Shown here: piece after piece, positions 56,194-63,551 of the stretch
Layout: the number at the start of each line of letters is the position of its first letter
Numbering within the stretch: position 1 is the stretch's first letter
Source of the DNA: Solitalea longa
GTDB lineage: Bacteria; Bacteroidota; Bacteroidia; Sphingobacteriales; Sphingobacteriaceae
Assembly (NCBI RefSeq): GCF_002920915.1
Contig: NZ_PQVF01000001.1
Location: 62,001-126,000, forward strand
DNA: 64,000 nt
Direction of reading: 5' to 3'
Translations under genes and position numbers: made by a program
The notes under the pieces: generated by a model
What the model was told of the DNA's origin: nothing
Seen by the model: the letters and a program-made list of their open reading frames with translations, nothing else
Databases searched by the model: none

Positions 56194-59022
56194 GTGACAA
56201 AAAAACTATTTCTGCTCGATGGAATGGCGCTAATCTATCGCGCTCATTTTGCGCTTAGCAAAGCACCTCGCTTTACTTCTTCCGGCCTTAATACTTCGGC
56301 CATGCTTGGCTTTACCAATACCTTACTGGAGGTGTTGAAAAAAGAACAACCTACCCATATGGCCGTGGTGTTTGATACCGAGGCTCCCACTGAGAGGCAT
56401 ACAGAGTTTGAACAATACAAGGCACATCGTGAAGCTATGCCTGAAGATCTTTCAGCTGCATTGCCATATGTAAAACGGATTATTGAAGGCTTTAATATTC
56501 CGGTTTTAACTGTTGACGGGTATGAGGCAGATGATATTATTGGTACACTTGCCAAAAAAGCAGAAAAAGAAGGGTTCATTACCTATATGATGACTCCTGA
56601 TAAAGACTTCGCCCAGTTGGTGAGCGACAGGATCTTCATTTATAAACCTGCTCGCTCAGGTAATGAAATGGAGATTATGGGGGTGAAAGAAGTGCTGGCC
56701 AAATGGGAGATTGAACGAGTTGACCAGGTTATAGATATTTTGGGTTTATGGGGTGATGCCGTTGATAATATTCCGGGGATACCCGGAATTGGTGAAAAAA
56801 CAGCAAAGCTGTTAATTCAGAAATATGGCTCAATGGAAAACATTTTCGCCAATTCACATGAGCTGAAAGGAAAACAAAAAGAGAATGTAGAGAATTTTAA
56901 AGATCAGGGCTTACTTTCAAAACGACTTGCTACCATCTTACTTAATACCCCAATTGAACTAGATGTAGATGCATTGTGTATTAAAGAACCTTCGAAAGAA
57001 ATTCTTGAGCCTCTTTTTGCCGAACTCGAATTCAGGACTTTAGGCAGAAGGGTGTTTGGCGAACAGTTCGTAGTAACTGGTGGTCAGGCGCTAAGTAATT
57101 CCAATATCCAAACCGATCTCTTTGGTAATCCTATTGGAGGAGTATCGGTAACTATCAAAAGGGAAACTGCGATTGAACCTGATGAAGAGGAACCATCAAC
57201 CACAGGATTCAAAACGATAGCGAACACTCCGCATAATTATGAAATAACAGATACTCCGGATAAAAGGAAGAAGCTTATTGAAGCTCTTGCGGCCCAAAAA
57301 TCATTTTGCTTTGATACCGAAACAACCGGAACCGATGCAAATGACGCTGAACTTGTTGGTTTATCGTTCTCATGGAAAAAAGGAGAAGGCTTTTACGTTC
57401 CCATTCCGGAAAATCAAGCTGAAGCACAAGCAATTGTAAATGAGTTTAAATCGATTTTAGAGAATCCGGAGACAGAAAAAATAGGTCAGAATATTAAATA
57501 TGATATTTTGATCATGAAGTGGTACAACGTTGAGATGCAGGGGCCATTATTTGATACCATGCTGGCGCATTACCTGATTGATGCAGATACCCGGCATAAC
57601 ATGGATTTTCTTTCGGAATCATATCTAAATTATTCGCCAATTTCTATTACTGAGTTAATTGGAAAGAAAGGTAAGGATCAAGGCAATATGCGCAGTGTTC
57701 CGATTGACAAAGCCGGAGAATACGCTGCCGAAGATGCCGATATTACACTTCAACTGAAAGAAACGTTTGCTCCATTGTTGCCTTCGCTCAATGCCGATAA
57801 GCTGGCCCGTGAAGTGGAAAATCCATTAGTGTATGTATTGGCCGATATGGAAAAAGAAGGAATCCGAATTGATCAAAAAGGGTTGGCCGATTACTCTAAA
57901 GAGCTTGAAAGTGATATTCAGCGTTTGGAAAAACAGATTTACGAAAAAGCTGGTGTTCGCTTTAACATCGCTTCCCCAAAACAATTAGGCGAAGTACTGT
58001 TTGAAAAACTCCAGCTCGATCCCAAGGCTAAGAAAACCAAAACAGGCCAGTATCAAACCGGCGAAGATGTTTTAACAGCACTGGCACCTAAACATGAAAT
58101 GGTGCAGGATGTATTGGATTTCCGTCAGTTACAAAAGTTAAAATCGACTTATGTTGATGCTTTGCCATTGATGATCAACCGCAAGACCGGTCGTGTACAC
58201 AGTTCATTTAATCAGGCTGTAGCCGCTACAGGGCGCTTGAGTTCCAACAATCCGAATCTTCAGAATATTCCTATCCGCACAGAGAAAGGACGTGAGGTTC
58301 GCCGAGCATTTATCCCTCGAAATGATGATTTCACGTTGCTTTCGGCCGATTATTCGCAGATAGAGCTGCGTATTATTGCCGAGATCAGCAAAGATGCGGG
58401 TATGCTGGACGCCTTTAAGCAGGGGCATGATATTCACAAAGCAACAGCCGCTAAAGTTTACGGGATTGGATTCGGTGAAGTTACCTCCGACCAGCGCCGA
58501 AATGCCAAAGCTGTAAACTTTGGTATCATTTACGGACAGTCGGCATTTGGTTTATCGCAAAGTTTGGGTATTCCTCGTAAGGAAGCCGCTGATATTATTG
58601 AACAATACTTTATTCAATATCCTAATATTAAGAAATACATGGCCGATATGGCCAACTTCGCCCGCGAAAATGGATATGTGGAAACCATTTTAGGTCGCCG
58701 TCGTTATTTACGTGACATTAATTCGGCGAATGCCGTGGTGCGTGGATTTGCAGAGCGAAATGCTATCAATGCTCCAATACAAGGCTCCGCCGCCGATATG
58801 ATCAAAGTGGCGATGATCAACATCAATCGAGAATTAAAATCGATGAAGGTTGACACCCGAATGATCTTACAGGTACATGATGAGTTGGTATTTGATGTTC
58901 CTAAAACTGAGGTAGAAAAAGTTAGGCCTGTTATAGAAGAATTGATGAAGAGTGCCATTAAAATGGAAGTTCCTATTTTGGTAGAAAGCGGAACAGGCAG
59001 CAATTGGCTCGAAGCTCATTAG
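56194..59022 (+). CDS. polA: DNA polymerase I
   Basis: A 942-residue repair and Okazaki-fragment polymerase. It starts at GTG 56194 (MTKKLFLLDGMALIYRAHFA, the usual beginning); no ATG fits. All three parts look active: the 5' nuclease (residues 1-290, TPDKDFAQLV, IPGIPGIGEKTA), the 3'-5' proofreading domain with its acidic residues (FDTETTGTD, YAAEDADI), and the polymerase with motif A (SADYSQIELRI), motif B (RRNAKAVNFGIIYGQS) and motif C (QVHDELVFD). Confidence 0.97.
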   Translation: MTKKLFLLDGMALIYRAHFALSKAPRFTSSGLNTSAMLGFTNTLLEVLKKEQPTHMAVVFDTEAPTERHTEFEQYKAHREAMPEDLSAALPYVKRIIEGFNIPVLTVDGYEADDIIGTLAKKAEKEGFITYMMTPDKDFAQLVSDRIFIYKPARSGNEMEIMGVKEVLAKWEIERVDQVIDILGLWGDAVDNIPGIPGIGEKTAKLLIQKYGSMENIFANSHELKGKQKENVENFKDQGLLSKRLATILLNTPIELDVDALCIKEPSKEILEPLFAELEFRTLGRRVFGEQFVVTGGQALSNSNIQTDLFGNPIGGVSVTIKRETAIEPDEEEPSTTGFKTIANTPHNYEITDTPDKRKKLIEALAAQKSFCFDTETTGTDANDAELVGLSFSWKKGEGFYVPIPENQAEAQAIVNEFKSILENPETEKIGQNIKYDILIMKWYNVEMQGPLFDTMLAHYLIDADTRHNMDFLSESYLNYSPISITELIGKKGKDQGNMRSVPIDKAGEYAAEDADITLQLKETFAPLLPSLNADKLAREVENPLVYVLADMEKEGIRIDQKGLADYSKELESDIQRLEKQIYEKAGVRFNIASPKQLGEVLFEKLQLDPKAKKTKTGQYQTGEDVLTALAPKHEMVQDVLDFRQLQKLKSTYVDALPLMINRKTGRVHSSFNQAVAATGRLSSNNPNLQNIPIRTEKGREVRRAFIPRNDDFTLLSADYSQIELRIIAEISKDAGMLDAFKQGHDIHKATAAKVYGIGFGEVTSDQRRNAKAVNFGIIYGQSAFGLSQSLGIPRKEAADIIEQYFIQYPNIKKYMADMANFARENGYVETILGRRRYLRDINSANAVVRGFAERNAINAPIQGSAADMIKVAMININRELKSMKVDTRMILQVHDELVFDVPKTEVEKVRPVIEELMKSAIKMEVPILVESGTGSNWLEAH

Positions 59023-59095
59023 CAGTCGGCAGTAAACAGTCGGCAGTCTTCAATTTCATATCCGATACTGGAGACTGCCTACTGTTTTATTTTAC
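59023..59095. terminator. Terminator between polA and dnaG with tandem CAGTCGGCAGT units
   Basis: Two copies of CAGTCGGCAGT (59023-59033 and 59037-59047). The second forms the left arm cagtcggcagtct (59037-59049) of a hairpin with agactgcctactg (59072-59084), one mismatch, followed by ttttatttta. Confidence 0.65.
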
Positions 59096-61029
59096 TTTAA
59101 TATCACTGCACCTAATTCAGTCGAAATATCTTTCTTAACCTGCGTTAGCTGTATGTGAAAAGTTTGTAAGGCAATTATCTCATCATCAGTGGTTGCCGTT
59201 TTCATCTTCTCTTGATTCTCTTTGATCAATCGCATCACCTTACGCATTTTAATGTGGTAAACTGCGCTTAATACAGCCTGTTTCAACTTCGATTTTTCAT
59301 CTGGCACAGGTATATCATGCATTTTCTCCCAGTTTTCGCTTAAACTATATGGAGAGGTTAGCAAGGTTGCCGTTAAATCGCGAATGTCATTATTAGGGTG
59401 GTGAATGAAAAAACGATCGTTAACCGTTTCTCCTTCATTCAATTTAAACCGCACTTCTTCAAAGAAAGTACCTAACAAACGGTTCCCAAACTCAATATCA
59501 TCAAGTGCATGGATCAAGAACTGAGCTACTGAAAGTTCCTCCTCCCAAACTTCACTGCTGTAATTGACCAATAAACGGATGATTTCTTCTTCCTGCGGAT
59601 CTTCATTATCAACCGGCACCTCTGCTTGGGGTTCCGCGTAGTCTAAAGCCCTTGGGTCGAAGTTTGGATCATCGTAGTCGGGTGTAAAATCAGGCTTTGA
59701 CTCCCTCTCTTTATCTTTACTTTTTGCATTTTTTAGTTTGAGCTTATTCAACTCCGACAATAAAATGCGTTCCTCCATTTGCAACAGCCTGCTGGTTTCG
59801 GAAATAAAAACCGAAGCCTTAATGCTGTCAGGTATTTTAGCAATGCTTTCAACAATATCACGAATTACTTCCGCCTTTTTTAATGGGTCGTTTTTAGTAT
59901 CTTGAAGTAATATGGATGTTTTGAAAAGGATAAAGTCCTTTTGATTTTCTTTAACATACTCTTTAAACGCCGTACCTCCAACGGTTCTAACGTATGAATC
60001 AGGGTCGTGTCCATCTGGGAAAAGAACGATTTTTACATTCAGTCCTTCTTCCAGGATCATATCAATACCACGTAAGGAAGCTTTTATACCTGCTGCGTCT
60101 CCATCGTATAAAATAGTAACGTTTTGAGTAAAGCGATTGATCAGCCGAATTTGCTCAACGGTTAACGAGGTTCCGGAAGAGGCCACCACATTCTCAATAC
60201 CTGATTGATGAAGGGAAATAACATCGGTATAGCCTTCAGCCAGAAAACAATTATCCTCGTCGCGGATCTTGTTCTTAGCAAAATAAACTCCGTAAAGGGT
60301 CTGACTTTTATGGTAAATGATCGACTCTGGTGAGTTTACATATTTGGCAGTTTTTTCACCGGTCTTCAACACACGGCCACCAAAACCAATTACCCTTCCG
60401 GTTAAGCTATGAATAGGAAAAATTACCCGGCCTTTGTAACGGTCAAATGTTTTGCCATCATCTTTTTTTATAGTAAGCCCGGTAGTTACCAGGTATTCTT
60501 CTTTATAGCCCGATTTTAGCGCTGCTTGCGTAAAGTCATCCCAGCGATCGGCACAATAACCCAACTGGAATTTTTTCAAGGTTTCTTCTCTGAAACCGCG
60601 CTCCTTAAAATAGCTCTGCCCAATGTTTACACCTTCTTCACGTTCAAACAGCGTTTCAGCGAAATAATTACGGGCAAACTCATTTACAATGAATAAGCTT
60701 TCGCGTTCATCATTTTCAGGGCTATCATCCTTCTTCCGAATTTCGTCAACTTCAATCTGGTATTTGTTGGCCAGCCATTTTAGGGCTTCCGGATAGCTGA
60801 ATTTCTCCAGCTCCATTAAAAAAGTAACCGCACTGCCACCTTTTCCCGTACTAAAATCTTTGAAGATTTGCTTTACCGGTGAAACCGTAAATGATGGGGT
60901 TTTCTCATTGGCAAATGGACTTAAGCCAACATAGTTTACCCCACGTTTTTTAAGATGCACAAATTCGCCGATAACTTCAACGATATCAACGGCATCCATT
61001 ATTCTATCTATGGTCTCTTTGGTAATCAC
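59092..61029 (-). CDS. dnaG: DNA primase without zinc ligands
   Basis: A 645-residue primase that makes RNA primers at the replication fork. The domain order is normal: an N-terminal zinc-binding-like domain (residues 1-100), the RNA polymerase core with TOPRIM (FLAEGYTDVISLHQSG, ILYDGDAAGIKA, FPDGHDPDSYVR), and a C-terminal helicase-interacting part. The zinc site is lost: the usual LCPFH is LSPFA and the usual CFGCG is DFSTG, while the surrounding pattern NEKTPSFTVSP and GKGGSA is kept. The domain may hold its fold without metal. Its function as the cell's primase is otherwise not in doubt. Confidence 0.93.
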   Translation of the reverse strand: MITKETIDRIMDAVDIVEVIGEFVHLKKRGVNYVGLSPFANEKTPSFTVSPVKQIFKDFSTGKGGSAVTFLMELEKFSYPEALKWLANKYQIEVDEIRKKDDSPENDERESLFIVNEFARNYFAETLFEREEGVNIGQSYFKERGFREETLKKFQLGYCADRWDDFTQAALKSGYKEEYLVTTGLTIKKDDGKTFDRYKGRVIFPIHSLTGRVIGFGGRVLKTGEKTAKYVNSPESIIYHKSQTLYGVYFAKNKIRDEDNCFLAEGYTDVISLHQSGIENVVASSGTSLTVEQIRLINRFTQNVTILYDGDAAGIKASLRGIDMILEEGLNVKIVLFPDGHDPDSYVRTVGGTAFKEYVKENQKDFILFKTSILLQDTKNDPLKKAEVIRDIVESIAKIPDSIKASVFISETSRLLQMEERILLSELNKLKLKNAKSKDKERESKPDFTPDYDDPNFDPRALDYAEPQAEVPVDNEDPQEEEIIRLLVNYSSEVWEEELSVAQFLIHALDDIEFGNRLLGTFFEEVRFKLNEGETVNDRFFIHHPNNDIRDLTATLLTSPYSLSENWEKMHDIPVPDEKSKLKQAVLSAVYHIKMRKVMRLIKENQEKMKTATTDDEIIALQTFHIQLTQVKKDISTELGAVILK

Positions 61030-62129: not shown

Positions 62130-63077
62130 TTATTTAGAGTAACCGTAGTGCTTAACGTTAAAGGCTGCAATTTCTTTCTTCTTAAAAGGAACGTCCCAAT
62201 TACCATTATAGTTAATGCGAACCGGCAGAAGATCATCGCCAAAGTAGTTCATCTCAATATTCATTTTTACATCAAAACTAAAGGCCATGTTATCATAACT
62301 CATATCGATAAAACGTCCCAAGATCTGAAAATTTCGCTTGTCAAAAATAGTGGTCAATTCATTTATCATCACCTTGCTGGTGTTTCGGTATTCGGGTTTA
62401 GCAACGCATTTGAAACGATATACCGGAATGTTTCCCATATAAGTACCGCTGAAAAATTGATAATCATAATACTGACGCATATCGGGCTCAAAGATTGCAG
62501 CCTTCTCACTTATAAATGGTACCCCCTTAATTGGCTTTCCAGGACTAAAAATGAGTACTTTCAGTTTGTCTTTATAGCCTTCTTCACCTTTTTCCCCTTT
62601 TGACGGCTTATTGCCTGTAAACTCAGAATTGTTCATGTTCTCAAAAATGTAACTGAACATTTGAACAGTATAAAGTTCATACCTGCCATTACTTTTAAAT
62701 ACCTCACCACTATCTATTTTGCTAAGCACTTTCTGTGTGTATTTACCGTTTAAATGTTCGTGATATATTTTTTTGAAGATGTGCGCGTTTCGTCTATATT
62801 TTTTATTGAACGTAAGAACATCGTTTTCTGCATAGAAATTATAGTCCTTCGTTTTTTTGAAACCCTGGTAAAAGACAGTATCTGTTAAAATTTGATCAAT
62901 GAAATCTTGAACAAATAAGCCATGCTTACCGGTAACTAAAATTGCCGAATCAAGCTGGAAATTAAGTATGGTATCCTGAGGTAATTCCCTTCCTGGTTTT
63001 GCCTTTTTTTTCTCCTGGGCAAACATTGGACTGCTAAACAAAAAGAAGAGTATAAAAACAATGGAAAAACGCTTCAT
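62130..63077 (-). CDS. Exported protein of unknown function
   Basis: A 315-residue protein when started at 63077, which places a signal peptide first (MKRFSIVFILFFLFSSPMFAQ); an earlier ATG at 63167 adds 30 residues without that logic. After a KKKAKPGRELPQDT stretch comes a helical part and then a beta-rich half (VYRFKCVAKPEYRN..., MSYDNMAFSFDVKMNIEMNYFG, LLPVRINYNGNWDVPFKKK) recalling the LolA-like or outer-membrane-lipoprotein-sorting fold. I do not recognise a family. Confidence 0.75.
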   Translation of the reverse strand: MKRFSIVFILFFLFSSPMFAQEKKKAKPGRELPQDTILNFQLDSAILVTGKHGLFVQDFIDQILTDTVFYQGFKKTKDYNFYAENDVLTFNKKYRRNAHIFKKIYHEHLNGKYTQKVLSKIDSGEVFKSNGRYELYTVQMFSYIFENMNNSEFTGNKPSKGEKGEEGYKDKLKVLIFSPGKPIKGVPFISEKAAIFEPDMRQYYDYQFFSGTYMGNIPVYRFKCVAKPEYRNTSKVMINELTTIFDKRNFQILGRFIDMSYDNMAFSFDVKMNIEMNYFGDDLLPVRINYNGNWDVPFKKKEIAAFNVKHYGYSK

Positions 63078-63551
63078 TGAAAATTTTAAAAATAGTTGCC
63101 AAATACGCCCCGAAGTTAAGTTTAATTTATGATTAACACTATAACTATACTTATGGTTAGTAATCAAAGCTCATTATTTGCCTGGTAGTACGCAGTTTTC
63201 CTCTACTACTCATATTTAATAGGTAATTAGTTGAAAATCTGTAATTTGATTTTACGAGGCAATTCTCTTTTTAGTTCGTTATTTACTATAAAGAATCAAA
63301 ATACCCTAAAAAGTCATATGCTTAAACTTAAAGTTAAGTGTTTTTTTGTGTTTTAAAGATTGGAAATTATGATCATAAATCATTGGATAAATCAGCATAC
63401 GTAATGCAAAAAATGAGGTTGTTTGCTTGTCTAAATTATAGTATCTTAATAGTTGACTGAGAATAAAGGTTTGCTAATTATCAGTATGGATAATTATTAA
63501 ATAATAAACTTTATTACGCTATAGTTTCAATCTAAAACAACTGCTGATCCA
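63078..63551. other. 474-base divergent gap
   Basis: AT-rich and without a supportable gene, RNA or strong hairpin. It must carry the promoters of the divergent exported-protein genes on either side, but I see no convincing TAnnTTTG box. Confidence 0.4.

Follow-up and report, generated by a model that had tools for sequence, protein, structure and literature searches.

The zinc of DnaG is treated as essential for template reading and primer start. The dnaG gene of Solitalea longa, located in the window analysed here (a stretch of 64,000 nucleotides of contig NZ_PQVF01000001.1), raises the question of how a replicative primase can work when all four ligands of this metal have been replaced.

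The dnaG gene of Solitalea longa

The features of the gene, with their positions in the window, are the following:

59092..61029, minus strand: dnaG, DNA primase of 645 aa with a GTG start; the only DnaG found in the genome
60745..61029, minus strand: N-terminal zinc-ribbon (CHC2) domain, residues 1-95, without zinc ligands (PF01807, 102.5 bits; fold predicted normal)
60919..60921, minus strand: Ser37, ligand position 1, Cys in zinc-type DnaG (sequence, alignment)
60910..60912, minus strand: Ala40, ligand position 2, His in zinc-type DnaG (sequence, alignment)
60859..60861, minus strand: Lys57, kept, seemingly matching K70 of the C. difficile primase (alignment position; PMC5204125)
60856..60858, minus strand: Asp58, ligand position 3, Cys in zinc-type DnaG (sequence, alignment)
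60847..60849, minus strand: Thr61, ligand position 4, Cys in zinc-type DnaG (sequence, alignment)
60277..60663, minus strand: DNAG_N, N-terminal part of the catalytic core, residues 123-251, ordinary (Pfam profile)
59992..60246, minus strand: Toprim catalytic domain, residues 262-346, ordinary (Pfam profile; EGYTD and DGDAAG motifs read)
59770..59892, minus strand: DnaB-binding segment, residues 380-420 (PF10410)

The initial annotation had claimed that the zinc ligands of this protein are all lost and that the residues around them are kept. Both points were confirmed. The translation contains LSPFA and KDFSTG, the ORF has S37, A40, D58 and T61 at the ligand positions, and the DNA-side residues of the domain are unchanged. 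Residues 1-95 include no Cys and a single His (H25) and, therefore, there is no alternative Cys-rich site in the domain. Despite the replacement of the whole Cys-His-Cys-Cys set, the PF01807 match reached 102.5 bits against a cut-off of 24.9. The matches to TIGR01391, the NCBIfam dnaG equivalog domain (442.5 bits, cut-off 283.6, residues 1-414), PF08275 (DNAG_N, 129 bits), Toprim_2 (82 bits) and PF10410, the DnaB-helicase-binding C-terminal region (24.3 bits, cut-off 20.6), were likewise above their cut-offs, and the acidic motifs EGYTD and DGDAAG were present. Judged by its sequence, the S. longa protein is an ordinary full DnaG apart from the zinc ligands, and the automatic label of CHC2 zinc finger is still assigned to it although these ligands are gone. 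The gene is convergent with polA (56194-59022) and the genes upstream of it are unrelated.

The genome of S. longa (4.5 Mb, 99.99% complete) gave one match to PF01807 and one to PF08275, and both correspond to dnaG. These searches, suggested by the initial annotation, found no second CHC2 primase in the genome, and a backup of this kind was ruled out. Neither was any match to PF09250 (Prim-Pol) detected by profile search of the same genome. As there is a single gene with these domains and no Prim-Pol in a near-complete genome, this dnaG most likely carries the priming in S. longa.

A sequencing or assembly error, or a misread frame, is so improbable as an explanation that it can practically be dismissed. 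It would have to account for four separate changes that leave the frame intact, and it is already refuted by the relatives, since three further genomes of the genus, as well as many related genera, show the same state. The replacement pattern is fixed across all the zinc-less DnaGs described below, which is more than chance would give. The four ligand positions read SADT in four species of the genus, S. longa and three others (L142-L144), which excludes the reappearance of the ligands in a corrected sequence, the outcome that the initial annotation had named as contrary to its claim.

Distribution and pattern of the ligand replacement

The alignment of Bacteroidota DnaGs at the ligand columns and the tree called for by the initial annotation revealed a loss that is widespread, recurrent and stereotyped in its replacement residues. 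The final alignment comprised 286 DnaG proteins, nearly all from Bacteroidota, distributed in 79 coded families. The ligand state was CHCC in 203 of them and CHWC in one, while the remaining 82 were without ligands, and at least one zinc-less DnaG occurred in 18 of the 79 families. Zinc-less proteins were found in Mucilaginibacter, Flavobacteriaceae (Polaribacter, Tenacibaculum, Lutibacter), Crocinitomicaceae and some Bacteroidales MAGs, as well as in families of another class; zinc-bearing ones were found in Pedobacter, Sphingobacterium, Pontibacter, Dyadobacter, Larkinella, Marivirga and Parabacteroides. The ligands were absent in all the Flavobacteriaceae DnaGs sampled, and families f1, f8, f50, f66 and f31 each mix zinc-bearing and zinc-less members. 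When 198 genomes were drawn evenly from the phylum, DNA patterns of the Ser version matched at dnaG in about 73 of them, a manual count from which chance and mobile-element matches were set aside and of which about 20 were checked by reading the protein. Nearly all of family f16, of another class, was among these genomes.

The CHWC protein comes from a MAG labelled Chryseobacterium gleum (L262), and its single ligand substitution may be an isolated case or an assembly artefact. In genome G334 (one contig; L159) the dnaG frame seems broken between residues 439 and 473 (S. longa numbering).

In all 82 zinc-less proteins ligand 1 was Ser and ligand 4 was Ser or Thr. Ligand 3 was either Asp or a retained Cys, the latter in about a third of them, and ligand 2 varied among Thr, Ser, Val, Ala and, rarely, His. 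These replacements were accompanied by correlated changes at positions 29, 34, 48 and 60, the last one being the Gly before ligand 4, which becomes Ser, and K63 and G64 were nearly fixed. The DNA-side framework was kept (E42, K43, PSF 45-47, K53, K57, F59, G65 and F70). Since single-ligand losses are almost absent, with one CHWC MAG, the ligand positions of DnaG change, on this alignment, as a unit.

It could be considered that the domain is decaying or unused, the reading of start sites having been abandoned or taken over elsewhere in the replisome. In well-studied primases it is the zinc motif that mediates template recognition (PMC6163395), and its loss might end that role. However, conservation of the domain within the genus is strong, placing it among the best-conserved protein parts between its species; the DNA-side residues other than the ligands show no variation from one independent loss to the next; and the same Ser, Asp, Ser/Thr pattern appears every time, which would not be expected from decay. 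Such a decay is thus very improbable. The proposal of the initial annotation that the loss is a stable lineage trait is supported by this genus-wide conservation, the well-conserved domain, the intact catalytic core and the finding of no second PF01807/PF08275 protein in the S. longa genome.

With DnaGs that have a CHC2 domain, such as 1D0Q (B. stearothermophilus) and 2AU3 (A. aeolicus), the S. longa protein shares the order of its domains, the catalytic motifs, the residues on the DNA side and the KTPSF / KGG framework, and the ribbon fold predicted for it lies 1.0 A from 1D0Q. It differs in the four replaced ligands and in the correlated substitutions at 29, 34, 48 and 60. Cysteines of the same domain are also missing in small CHC2 + Toprim proteins of Bacteroidota (L311, L312 and L313), for instance in the form SPFR..TPSFK....W[FY]DHG. 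Unlike replicative DnaG, these proteins have about 300 aa, a shorter architecture and no DNAG_N, and they are probably genes of mobile elements.

Evolutionary history of the zinc-less domain

The catalytic-domain tree requires 15 to 18 changes of zinc state, and supported branches force at least 11 of these. As sister lineages keep zinc, the change recurred, and zinc loss in DnaG is, according to this tree, a recurrent event across Bacteroidota.

The catalytic part of DnaG rejects Solitalea and Mucilaginibacter as one clade (AU p 1.1e-5), and the RpoC tree likewise separates them. In contrast, once the ligands are masked, their domains share 85% identity and group as one clade (support 96/89), in a tree of only 82 columns in which zinc-less domains might cluster too strongly owing to convergent co-adaptation. 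For the zinc-less domain, the arrangement of the species tree is rejected (AU p 0.0097), some of the groups for the topology tests having been picked after the trees had been inspected. At columns not linked elsewhere to zinc state, identity is 94% to the Mucilaginibacter domain vs. 76-84% to zinc-bearing relatives, and the DnaG identity between Solitalea and Mucilaginibacter falls sharply near residue 90. Third-position identity of the DNA, also considered as a breakpoint test, was near saturation and gave no usable signal. Because the domain tree joins both genera, the catalytic and RpoC trees separate them and identity drops near residue 90, we conclude that the exchange took place within the gene, the zinc-less domain having passed from one Sphingobacteriaceae lineage to another separately from the catalytic core. 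In this family it would have evolved once, being later exchanged between lineages as a module.

Regarding the direction of this exchange, the Mucilaginibacter domain lacks derived residues of its surrounding clade (S32, L33 and V51, among others), and the sister of the Solitalea and Mucilaginibacter domain is that of g192, the catalytic sister of Solitalea. Both observations point to Mucilaginibacter as the recipient, and a transfer from the Solitalea lineage to Mucilaginibacter is the most likely one. The domain tree nests Solitalea inside Mucilaginibacter, but a Mucilaginibacter group without Solitalea is still tolerated (p 0.0985).

A wholesale transfer of dnaG from Mucilaginibacter to S. 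longa was also considered and rejected, since the catalytic part groups with the zinc-bearing g192 and an upstream gene matches the Pedobacter neighbourhood. This is the second gene upstream of dnaG (62130-63167), with relatives upstream of dnaG in Pedobacter (L196, L198) and none in the Mucilaginibacter dnaG flanks examined. The dnaG neighbourhood is therefore not derived from Mucilaginibacter.

Zinc-less domains were found outside bacterial chromosomes of the phylum as well. Primases of Flavobacterium and Cellulophaga phages (Duneviridae; L371, L372 and L373) have a zinc-less domain with the same signature and are possible carriers of it. A DnaG of a Mycoplasmatota plasmid (CP074574.1; L376:301-561) has SxxN...DxxS at the ligand positions, that is, the same chemistry outside Bacteroidota.

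A similar replacement affects an unrelated protein. The flavobacterial DUF164 / FlgZ zinc ribbon (PF02591) is reported in PMC3372290 to have SxxS...DxxS instead of CxxC...CxxC, and dnaG is mentioned in the portion consulted as a neighbouring gene only. The chemistry is the same as in zinc-less DnaG, with Cys to Ser, Cys to Asp and Cys to Ser changes at matching knuckle positions; however, DUF164 is unrelated to DnaG and that of S. longa itself keeps all four cysteines. In several genomes with zinc-less DnaG (L363-L367, L369) the FlgZ-like DUF164 has SxxS or AxxS...DxxS for CxxC...CxxC. A low-scoring DUF164 ribbon was present in 11 of 30 zinc-less-DnaG genomes and in none of 80 others (Fisher p 1e-7), some of these ribbons (e.g., G269 and G173) having been called by score, with their ligands not read. 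When phylogenetically independent pairs were considered, the association was only about 4 to 0 (p ~0.125). A link between the ligand losses of DnaG and DUF164 is, on these figures, no more than suggestive.

All the zinc-less primase domains could also have one origin and have been spread by domain-level recombination, with phages and mobile elements as carriers. The signature shared by these domains (K34 in most lineages, S60, K63 and G64), its presence in the Flavobacterium and Cellulophaga phage primases and the one clear case of domain exchange, that of Solitalea and Mucilaginibacter, are consistent with such an origin. However, zinc-less domains as a single clade were borderline rejected (AU p 0.044), the catalytic-domain tree requires the at least 11 changes mentioned above, and the similar S-D-S pattern on the Mycoplasmatota plasmid and in the unrelated DUF164 ribbon makes convergence possible. 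A single origin is, on balance, doubtful.

Predicted metal-free fold and its implications

AlphaFold2 modelled the zinc-binding domain plus catalytic core with a mean pLDDT of 89.1, and the domain alone, from an alignment of zinc-less relatives only, with a pLDDT of 93.1. In Foldseek, both models lay at 1.0 A from the zinc domain of B. stearothermophilus (1D0Q), with 92 columns aligned. The ribbon fold is thus predicted to be kept without zinc. These figures belong to a prediction and not to a structure; AlphaFold2 frequently yields the holo fold irrespective of the residues, and the stability of a metal-free form cannot be read from its models.

With all these data, we think it likely that the S. 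longa DnaG is a replicative primase with a metal-free, working template-recognition domain in which Ser/Thr-Asp contacts replace zinc. The metal normally pins the two knuckles of the ribbon together; in its place, putative hydrogen bonds of Asp58 with the hydroxyls of Ser37, Ser60 and Thr61 and with the backbone would hold them. The domain would still read a template trinucleotide and prime in the usual way, and priming would no longer depend on zinc or on reduced, redox-sensitive cysteines. In the C. difficile primase, K70, located beside the zinc motif, makes the enzyme prefer CCC to CTA (PMC5204125). As K57 of S. longa apparently matches this residue, the analogy predicts, if anything, a CCC-like and hence unchanged start-site preference.

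Alternatively, a metal (Zn, Mg, Ca or Mn) might still be coordinated in the domain by Asp58 and Ser/Thr hydroxyls, perhaps together with His25 or the backbone, as most zinc-less sequences have Asp and two hydroxyl residues at three of the four ligand positions. A lone carboxylate plus hydroxyls makes a poor zinc site. Moreover, residues 1-95 offer no Cys and one His, and the Cys in place of Asp at ligand 3 in about a third of the zinc-less sequences is ill-suited to a common hard-metal site. A metal-bound domain is for these reasons unlikely, and a metal-free one is preferred. A general sparing of zinc by the S. longa genome was unsupported, both RpoC zinc sites and the DUF164 ribbon being intact.

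A literature search restricted to open-licence papers found no earlier report of a zinc-less DnaG. On the sequence evidence gathered here, the S. longa case belongs to a conversion that is widespread, recurrent and stereotyped, and in part transferable. Tentatively, a reusable substitution scheme, in which the knuckle Cys residues become Ser, Asp and Ser/Thr, may turn Bacteroidota zinc ribbons into metal-free domains. DnaG would have undergone it several times, the unrelated DUF164 would have followed the same route in parallel in some of the lineages concerned, and a plasmid primase from outside the phylum would be a further case; once formed, the metal-free primase domain may be passed among bacteria and phages as a unit of its own, separately from the catalytic core. 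The substitution pattern suggests a recipe for metal-free zinc ribbons, and zinc-less DnaGs provide a natural experiment on whether the role of zinc is structural only or extends to recognition. The finding is also of relevance to primase inhibitors targeting the zinc site, and the automatic CHC2 zinc finger label needs correcting on many genes. Many bacteria, including all the sampled Flavobacteriaceae, apparently replicate with a primase unable to hold zinc in the usual way.
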